A stretch of DNA of 64,000 nucleotides from Nitrosophilus kaiyonis (lineage in GTDB: Bacteria > Campylobacterota > Campylobacteria > Campylobacterales > Nitratiruptoraceae), in the NCBI RefSeq assembly GCF_027943725.1, contig NZ_AP025696.1, positions 1,589,501 through 1,653,500 on the forward strand, read 5' to 3'. The position numbers and the translations under genes were made by a program. Under the pieces are notes generated by a model. The model had not been told where the DNA came from. It did not search any database and saw only the letters and a program-made list of their open reading frames with translations. Of the stretch, positions 25,374 through 27,770 are shown piece by piece. Numbering within the stretch: the stretch's first letter is position 1; every line of letters starts with the position of its first letter.

Positions 25374-27770
25374 ATGGAAAACAAAACTATTTTTATAAAA
25401 GCACAAGAACTTAAGAAAAAGCTAAAAAAAGAGATTTTTGGACAAAATGAAGCAATTGAAGAGGTTGTTGATGCATTAATTCATATAAATTTTTCTCCAA
25501 CAAAACAAAATTTCAAAGCTCTTTTTACCTTTTTAGGGCCACATAACAGCGGAAAAGTATATCTTGCAAAACTTTTAGCAAAATATAGTGATGAGTTTGA
25601 CAATATAAAAATTTTTGATATGGCTGAATTTACAGATCCAAATGATCAAAAAAAGCTGATAGGAGAGAATGGCTCTTTAACAAATTTTGTAAAAAAATAT
25701 CCAAATTCTATAATTGTTTTTAAAGATATTGATAAAGCTGACAATGTTATACAATTAGCAATATTAAACTATATAAAAGCACCATATGAAGAGAGTGGTG
25801 TTGATTTTAGTAATATTTTAATTATTTTCACATCAACTCTTGGCTCAAACTATATAAAAAGAGAGGACTTTTTATCTTTTTATAAAAAGGATAAGTTAAA
25901 AGCTGAAGCAAAAATCATAGAATATATAGCAAAAGAGAAAAAAGTTATTTATGATTTAGTTGAAAATGCAATAGATCCAGAACTTTTATCAACAATTGTA
26001 CAAAATTACATAATTTTATTTAAACCATTAAAAATAGACTCTATTTATAAAATTGCCCAAAAAGTATTAAACGAAACTATCAAAATTTTTAAAGAAAAAA
26101 GTAAAATTTCTATAGAGATTAAAAATAGTAAAGATTTCATAAAACTTATTGTTTTTAGCTTTTCTCCATATATAAATGCAAGAAGAATCCATAAAAAATT
26201 ACCAGATTTTATAATTGATCTTATTTATACAAATATTACAAAACATAACATAACCCCTAAAAAAACTGTTTTTGAAGTAGATAAAGAAGCTTTAAGTTTT
26301 ATTGATAAAATTAAAGATGAAGAGGAGTTTGTAAAAGATATAATAAAAAGAAACGAAAGTGTTGAATTAAAATTTGATTCTAAAATAAAAGATAATATTT
26401 TAGATATTAGTATAAAAAAAGCAACAAAAAAGAGACTTCCTCTTTATATCTCTCCATATGAAAAACCAGCACTTTTATACTCAAATATATCTTTTGATGA
26501 TGTTGCTGGACAAAAAAGTGTTAAAAAGAGTTTAAAAGAGATTATTGAAGTTTTAAAACATCCAAACTTAATAAAAAAATTTTCAATAGATATGCCAAAA
26601 GGAATGCTTTTATACGGCCCAAAAGGGGTTGGGAAAACCCTTCTTGGATTAGCTTTTGCAAAAGAGGCAAATCTTCCGTATATCTATTTAACTGGAAGTG
26701 ACCTTTTTGATGAAAACCTAATAAGAGTTGCTTATGAAAAAGCAAAAGAGTTTGCACCAGCTATTATATTTTTGGATGAGATAGATACAAAAGGTTTGAT
26801 TGAGGGTGTTTATACAACAATGCCACCTGAAACTTTAATAAATGAGCTTGATTCTTTAAACCAAGAAGGGAAAAATTTTGTTTTTACAATAGCAACAGCT
26901 ATAAATAAAGAAGATATCAATAAAAATATTATAGCTCCAGGAAGAATTGATATATTTGTTGAGGTTCCAGAGCTTGATATGGAGGCTAGAAAATTTTTTA
27001 TTAAAAAGATTTTAGAAAAACCAAATGATGGAAAAATAGATATTAATAGAGTTGCAAGGTATATGTCTGGAATGAGTGGATATGAGATGCAAAGAGTTGG
27101 AAAAGAGGCTGCATTATATGTAATTAGAAAAAATTTAAAAGTCATTACTGAAGATATTTTAATTGAGCAGATAAACAATATAAAATATGGATATAAATTA
27201 GAGAAAAAAAGAATAAGAAATATTGAAAAAGATCTTCACAAAACTGCCTATCATGAGGCTGGACATGCTGTTTTAAGCTATATTTTGCTTCCAGATATAA
27301 AAATAGAGCAAGTAACTATTACTCCAAGAGCTGAAACTTTAGGATTTGTTTCATATACAGACCAAGAGTTTATTACCAATATATCAAAAGAGGAGCTTTT
27401 TAATGATGTATGTGTTGCTCTTGCTGGACGTATAGCAAAACTAAAAAAATTTCCAAAAGAGGGAGAAGATACAGGAGCATCTCAAGATTTAGAGCAGGCA
27501 ACCTGGGAAGTATATAATGCAATTGCAAATTTTGGAATGGATGAAGAGATAGGATATGTAAATATAGATACATTAAACCAAAATGTTAGCAAATCTCTAT
27601 TTAAAGAAAAACTTGAAGAAAGGATATCCTATTGGATACAAGAGGCAACTAAAAAAACAAAAAATTTGGTTGATAAATATTGGAATAAGATAGAAAAAGT
27701 GGCAAATGAGCTAATTAAAAAAGAGATTATCGATGGGAATGAGCTTAAAAAAATTATGGAAGGCTCTTAA
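25374..27770 (+). CDS. AAA+ protease: degenerate Clp-like module fused to FtsH-like AAA-M41
   Basis: A 798-aa protein with two AAA modules and a zinc protease, no signal peptide and no membrane segment. Residues about 20-290 resemble the ClpB/ClpA second ATPase (IFGQNEAIEEVVDALI, IFTSTLGSNYI), but Walker A reads GPHNSGKV (55-62), Walker B FKDID and the arginine-finger stretch is lost, so it should not hydrolyse ATP. Residues about 365-600 are FtsH-like with intact Walker A (G415-T422) and Walker B FLDEID, yet the aromatic pore-loop segment is shortened and only one of the paired SRH arginines remains. Protease ligands HEAGH (627-631) and D705 are intact. Related soluble FtsH paralogues exist in Campylobacterota; substrates are unknown. 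Confidence 0.85.
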   Translation: MENKTIFIKAQELKKKLKKEIFGQNEAIEEVVDALIHINFSPTKQNFKALFTFLGPHNSGKVYLAKLLAKYSDEFDNIKIFDMAEFTDPNDQKKLIGENGSLTNFVKKYPNSIIVFKDIDKADNVIQLAILNYIKAPYEESGVDFSNILIIFTSTLGSNYIKREDFLSFYKKDKLKAEAKIIEYIAKEKKVIYDLVENAIDPELLSTIVQNYIILFKPLKIDSIYKIAQKVLNETIKIFKEKSKISIEIKNSKDFIKLIVFSFSPYINARRIHKKLPDFIIDLIYTNITKHNITPKKTVFEVDKEALSFIDKIKDEEEFVKDIIKRNESVELKFDSKIKDNILDISIKKATKKRLPLYISPYEKPALLYSNISFDDVAGQKSVKKSLKEIIEVLKHPNLIKKFSIDMPKGMLLYGPKGVGKTLLGLAFAKEANLPYIYLTGSDLFDENLIRVAYEKAKEFAPAIIFLDEIDTKGLIEGVYTTMPPETLINELDSLNQEGKNFVFTIATAINKEDINKNIIAPGRIDIFVEVPELDMEARKFFIKKILEKPNDGKIDINRVARYMSGMSGYEMQRVGKEAALYVIRKNLKVITEDILIEQINNIKYGYKLEKKRIRNIEKDLHKTAYHEAGHAVLSYILLPDIKIEQVTITPRAETLGFVSYTDQEFITNISKEELFNDVCVALAGRIAKLKKFPKEGEDTGASQDLEQATWEVYNAIANFGMDEEIGYVNIDTLNQNVSKSLFKEKLEERISYWIQEATKKTKNLVDKYWNKIEKVANELIKKEIIDGNELKKIMEGS

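Follow-up and report, generated by a model that had tools for sequence, protein, structure and literature searches.

The gene described here lies in a 64,000-nucleotide stretch of DNA (the window) and consists of a single open reading frame encoding a protein of 798 residues, with coordinates and strand (Table 1) exactly matching those given by an earlier, sequence-only reading of the same DNA. The sequence AGGA precedes its ATG start codon. Pfam models place AAA_2 at residues 50-205 (E = 1e-14, clearing the cut-off), AAA at residues 411-532 (E = 2e-24) and Peptidase_M41 at residues 619-794 (E = 3e-34). From N- to C-terminus, the order is an AAA module of the ClpB-D2 type (AAA1), a linker, a second AAA module of the FtsH type (AAA2) and, last, the M41 zinc protease.

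Table 1. Features of the 798-residue protein and its gene, in window positions.
Feature	Position	Strand	Evidence
Gene, soluble ClpD2-like / FtsH-AAA / M41 fusion, 798 aa	25374..27770	+	ORF, Pfam, relatives
AAA1, ClpB/ClpA D2-type module (aa 10-300)	25401..26273	+	Pfam, NCBIfam, solved structures, alignment, predicted structure
Linker (aa 301-368)	26274..26477	+	predicted structure, evolutionary rate
AAA2, FtsH-type AAA module (aa 369-610)	26478..27203	+	Pfam, solved FtsH, alignment
M41 zinc protease (aa 611-798), H627 E628 H631 + D705	27204..27767	+	Pfam, alignment
HEAGH zinc-binding catalytic motif (aa 627-631)	27252..27266	+	motif, alignment

The sequence-only reading had taken the N-terminal half for an AAA+ module of the ClpB/ClpA D2 type, and three lines of evidence agree: the AAA_2 match, a match of AAA1 to positions 558-847 of the NCBIfam ClpB model TIGR03346 (E = 2.9e-24), and the matching of the N-terminal 364 residues alone to the ClpB D2 of solved structures (4lj4, E = 1.2e-15). 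The AAA2-M41 portion matches the FtsH model TIGR01241 (E = 1.1e-75, NCBIfam), with a score of 255.6 that falls far below the curated cut-off of 600, and matches solved FtsH (E = 5e-58) at about 30% identity. A structure predicted with AlphaFold has a mean pLDDT of 84.7; because its pTM is only 0.51, the placement of the domains relative to one another is unreliable. With the model as query, Foldseek returned FtsH as the best matches, and the predicted AAA2-M41 fold appears FtsH-like. The linker, modeled as helices and then two long beta strands, is found across the members of the family that carry AAA1, and evolves faster.

No transmembrane helix is present: hydropathy over 19 residues peaks at 1.06, compared with 2.63 and 2.78 for the two membrane FtsH-like proteins of the same genome. 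The absence of a membrane anchor, as first proposed from the sequence, is thereby upheld, and a membrane FtsH with an overlooked anchor is ruled out. The genome (1.77 Mb, one contig) encodes ClpB-type and ClpA-type proteins as well as two membrane proteins of the FtsH kind, one an ordinary FtsH and the other FtsH-like, so the 798-residue protein is an extra, not the house FtsH. The second membrane FtsH-like protein (559 residues; L003 / L052, G000:C1:1437103-1438305) keeps Walker motifs, pore loop and second region of homology (SRH), with YQAAK in place of HEXXH; judged from these motifs, it is a pseudo-protease, the converse of the Clp-FtsH finding. A search of the 64-kb window for the CIRCE heat-shock operator found none.

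Distribution and phylogeny of the family

Relatives at E <= 1e-60 occur in 39 of 397 sampled Campylobacterota genomes, the source genome included, from 12 of 68 genera. Relatives are also encoded by 7 of 395 genomes belonging to the same phylum as a Desulfobacterales MAG. The Nitratiruptor MAG (L008) and Campylobacterales MAG (L004) sequences show about 61-62% identity to the 798-residue protein, and those of four deltaproteobacterial/Desulfobacterales MAGs show 51-54%. Distribution is patchy, with no relative at E <= 1e-60 in two other sampled genomes of the source genus. None was found at E 1e-80 in 297 genomes from the phylum of a Saprospiraceae MAG, a search that carried no positive control, and none by one single-sequence query of viral contigs. 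Plasmids and phages gave only partial matches of FtsH or Clp type, none spanning at least 80% of the query in one place.

In a maximum-likelihood tree built on the AAA2-M41 core, a long group (L032, L035, L039, L040, L045 and L050; 874-1092 residues) stands apart from a short clade. Support is 40 for the former and 78 for the latter, which leaves the basal branching weak; the motif table agrees with the split. The short clade comprises 37 proteins with AAA1, the 798-residue protein among them. One frame in this clade, L038, stops near query residue 654, inside M41; the remaining members are full-length open frames, with L083 running off a contig end. The N-terminal extension of the long members matches no Pfam family, and looks Clp_N-like by its helix pattern. 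Eight further proteins (family f4) have no AAA1 at all; they are about 450 residues in length, apart from one whose frame is longer. That AAA1 might be encoded next door to these was considered and rejected, as no such neighboring gene was seen (L041-L049).

Loss of AAA1 motor motifs and retention of the P-loop

As the sequence-only reading had claimed, Walker A of AAA1 ends in GKV (GPHNSGKV, residues 55-62), Walker B is FKDID, and the arginine finger is gone, its position occupied by T207. The pore loop, GYVGYEEGG in ClpB, is deleted, as it is in the closest relatives. The long and short groups differ sharply here. Arginine occupies the finger position in all six long-clade proteins and in none of the 37 short-clade proteins; the complete motor set of an active D2 (Walker A GK[ST], Walker B DE and the arginine finger) is found in five of the six and, again, in none of the 37. 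The most economical reading is that the arginine finger was lost once, at the base of the short clade, and that Walker A and Walker B were then lost by degrees. Long members also hold an aromatic residue in the AAA1 pore-loop region (GYKNERE, GYSDAGE), and because this is kept while the AAA2 pore loop is gone, AAA1 is the likely motor in the long clade.

Only nine of 290 AAA1 columns are invariant in the short clade, and three of these are G55, G60 and K61 of the P-loop, present in 37 of 37 proteins. By the Nei-Gojobori method, applied to close pairs with saturated pairs excluded, dN/dS is 0.04-0.18 for AAA1 and 0.01-0.13 for M41. Purifying selection therefore acts on the dead ring. From the P-loop pattern, AAA1 probably still binds nucleotide, and the nucleotide pocket seems to be among the features that selection maintains.

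The description of the first ATPase as dead thus stands as regards a complete motor set, but not as regards an inability to bind nucleotide. Homologs with an intact first ATPase, which the sequence-only reading had said would point to simple decay or error in this gene, do exist (L032, L035, L039, L040, L050), but form a separate group in different neighborhoods, and the degenerate form makes up an old clade of its own, conserved across two phyla. Because the module is conserved under purifying selection, loss of the AAA1 motor is neither error nor decay.

AAA2 and the protease site

The FtsH-like module was said to keep its Walker motifs and protease ligands and to have lost one SRH arginine, and each of these points is confirmed: Walker A is GPKGVGKT, Walker B is FLDEID, HEAGH and the third ligand D705 are both found, and the SRH reads GRIDI, with the first arginine present and the position of the second taken by I527. 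The pore loop, thought to be lost in part, is in fact missing as one six-residue block (MFVGVG in FtsH). Its deletion and the absence of the second SRH arginine are common to all aligned members, while the first SRH arginine is retained in every long and short member. The shortened loop (DLFD, with F445) might serve as a pore contact. The AAA2 P-loop (G415, G420, K421) is present in 51 of 51 members. The Walker B glutamate is gone from 26 of 37 short members and from all eight that lack AAA1. Walker A and Walker B are both kept in the 798-residue protein and 16 other members, so AAA2 may still hydrolyze ATP in the former.

At the protease site, all 51 members have E628 and H631, 50 have H627, and D705 is present wherever its region is (L038 ends before it). 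The exception at H627 is the long-clade member L045:4587-7211, which has an altered protease histidine (YEAGH), has lost the AAA1 Walker B glutamate, and adjoins a NikA-like mobilization gene.

Gene neighborhoods

The source gene's family sits in a conserved block, all or most of which is present in seven compared loci, the source locus included. With functions assigned by eye from sequence, one flank carries methyltransferase-like, TolC-like, argD-like, molybdopterin-oxidoreductase-like and membrane-fusion-protein-like genes, and the opposite flank NAPRTase-like and metK genes, the NAPRTase being absent from the source locus. Within Desulfobacterota, the short clade has conserved partner genes only among near relatives. 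In two closely related deltaproteobacterial loci (L005, L009), an HPF-like gene, a small ORF, a Lon-like gene of 823 residues and the short-clade gene follow in the same orientation, a possible stress or ribosome-hibernation operon.

Five of six long-clade proteins adjoin genes for DUF4062-STAND, TIR or ankyrin proteins. DUF4062-STAND proteins (889-1636 residues) are encoded beside long-clade genes at L050, L071, L074 and L075; at L074 and L075 a TIR protein and a TrkA_N protein also lie beside the gene, and at L072 an ankyrin protein does. The clusters at L074 and L075 (also L050 and L071) resemble an NLR-like conflict system; PADLOC models gave no match to the two STAND proteins scanned from them. 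No MoxR or vWA genes were seen by eye among the flanking ORFs of the source window, and a Pfam scan of long-clade neighbors gave no vWA match and no dedicated MoxR gene.

Relation to known systems

No published account of AAA1, AAA2 and M41 in this order was found in the open-access literature, and "undescribed" is used here provisionally. The protein shares with FtsH and the m-AAA and i-AAA proteases (TIGR01241, M41) the AAA2-M41 order and fold, HEXXH and an aspartate as third ligand, but lacks the anchor, the pore loop and the second SRH arginine, adds an N-terminal Clp-type AAA, and scores below the FtsH cut-off. AAA1 resembles the D2 of ClpB, ClpA and Hsp104 in that its alignment spans the D2 core and small domain, and in having the GQ..AI start motif, with the sensor-2 arginine in many family members. 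Unlike that D2, AAA1 of the short clade has no arginine finger and mostly no Walker B glutamate, and in the 798-residue protein no pore tyrosine loop; it is a D2-like module only, with no D1 ring, and is fused to a protease of another family.

The nearest published idea that we found is the FtsH-type component of vWA-MoxR ternary systems (Kaur et al. 2020, PMC7159879), which has two FtsH-type AAA modules, the first inactive with its P-loop lost, and adjacent MoxR and vWA genes; M41 is not reported there. Two AAA modules, the first catalytically inactive, are common to both, but here AAA1 is Clp-type and has its P-loop, M41 is present, and no MoxR/vWA pair was seen among the neighbors examined. 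Plant FtsHi and Ycf2 (PMC8197885, PMC9020784) are a pseudoenzyme branch of the FtsH family, and FtsHi is a mirror image: it lost the protease and stays membrane-bound, whereas here it is the ATPases that decay and the protease that is kept. Some plasmid loci, in which clpK and ftsH are neighbors, likewise bring Clp-type and FtsH-type genes together, but as separate genes, none covering at least 80% of the query, and with an FtsH of the ordinary annotated kind.

A proposed scaffold in place of a motor

The domain order, the lack of an anchor, the motif losses, the purifying selection on AAA1, the retained P-loop and the nearly universal protease site are direct observations. Building on them, we give about even chances to a soluble metalloprotease of the M41 family in which the two AAA+ modules would act as an assembly and gating scaffold rather than as a threading motor. 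AAA2 and M41 would assemble as in FtsH, presumably as a hexamer, into a closed chamber. AAA1 would form or cap a second ring, its P-loop holding nucleotide without hydrolyzing it, and AAA2 of the 798-residue protein may bind ATP and hydrolyze it slowly, as a switch. Nucleotide would set the gate. Substrates would be unfolded proteins or peptides, entering by diffusion or by hand-over from a partner, because neither ring has a pore loop. For the same reason an unfolding ring stack is unlikely, and the idea of the paired rings as a substrate-threading platform is not supported.

It is possible, if rather unlikely, that AAA2 is still ATP-driven and pulls substrate through an unconventional pore contact, with AAA1 as a static recognition collar, much as the sequence-only reading had imagined the first ring as a platform for recognizing substrates. 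The 17 proteins that keep both AAA2 Walker motifs, and the first SRH arginine found throughout the long and short members, are consistent with such a machine. However, the pore loop is deleted and the second SRH arginine lost in every member, and Walker B of AAA2 decays in most short-clade lineages while the protease site stays, so the conserved function seems not to need AAA2 hydrolysis.

We regard as improbable that the 798-residue protein comes from an NLR-like conflict system and has been domesticated, the long clade being a defense-cluster protease that works alongside STAND and TIR partners, while the short proteins would be resident descendants or relatives still answering infection or stress. 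The DUF4062-STAND genes in four loci, the TIR, TrkA_N and ankyrin genes and the patchy distribution all fit this account. The short clade, however, lacks such neighbors: the source family sits in a metabolic and efflux block, the Desulfobacterota members have no conserved partner beyond near relatives, and with a long-clade support of 40 the tree does not settle a defense ancestry for the common ancestor. A defense role is plausible for the long clade, and would extend to the 798-residue protein only by descent. Least credible by far is decay, in which a onetime Clp-FtsH fusion would be on its way to becoming a pseudogene, for although motor motifs were lost by degrees, L038 is cut short and AAA1 is wholly absent from eight members, the other short members have full-length frames, AAA1 has low dN/dS, the P-loop and protease residues are invariant and synteny is conserved; family conservation, open frames and dN/dS likewise rule out frameshift or assembly artifact.

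AAA+ proteases are generally understood as ATP-driven threading machines. This family has fixed its protease residues and kept the P-loop lysines, but has shed pore loops, arginine fingers and catalytic glutamates; it is a natural experiment in which nucleotide binding can be told apart from hydrolysis and threading. From the long clade through the short clade to the group without AAA1, it offers a ready series for probing the role of each ring. The link of the motor-intact clade to STAND and TIR genes makes that clade a candidate for the protease part of bacterial NLR-like systems. Tentatively, then, this may be a widespread undescribed family in which AAA+ motors have turned into nucleotide-binding gates on a non-threading protease, with a motor-intact sister clade that would be the protease arm of an NLR-like (STAND/TIR) immune cluster. 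Decay of the motors beside a nearly constant cutting site, in two phyla, suggests that this protease has ceased to draw proteins through a pore.
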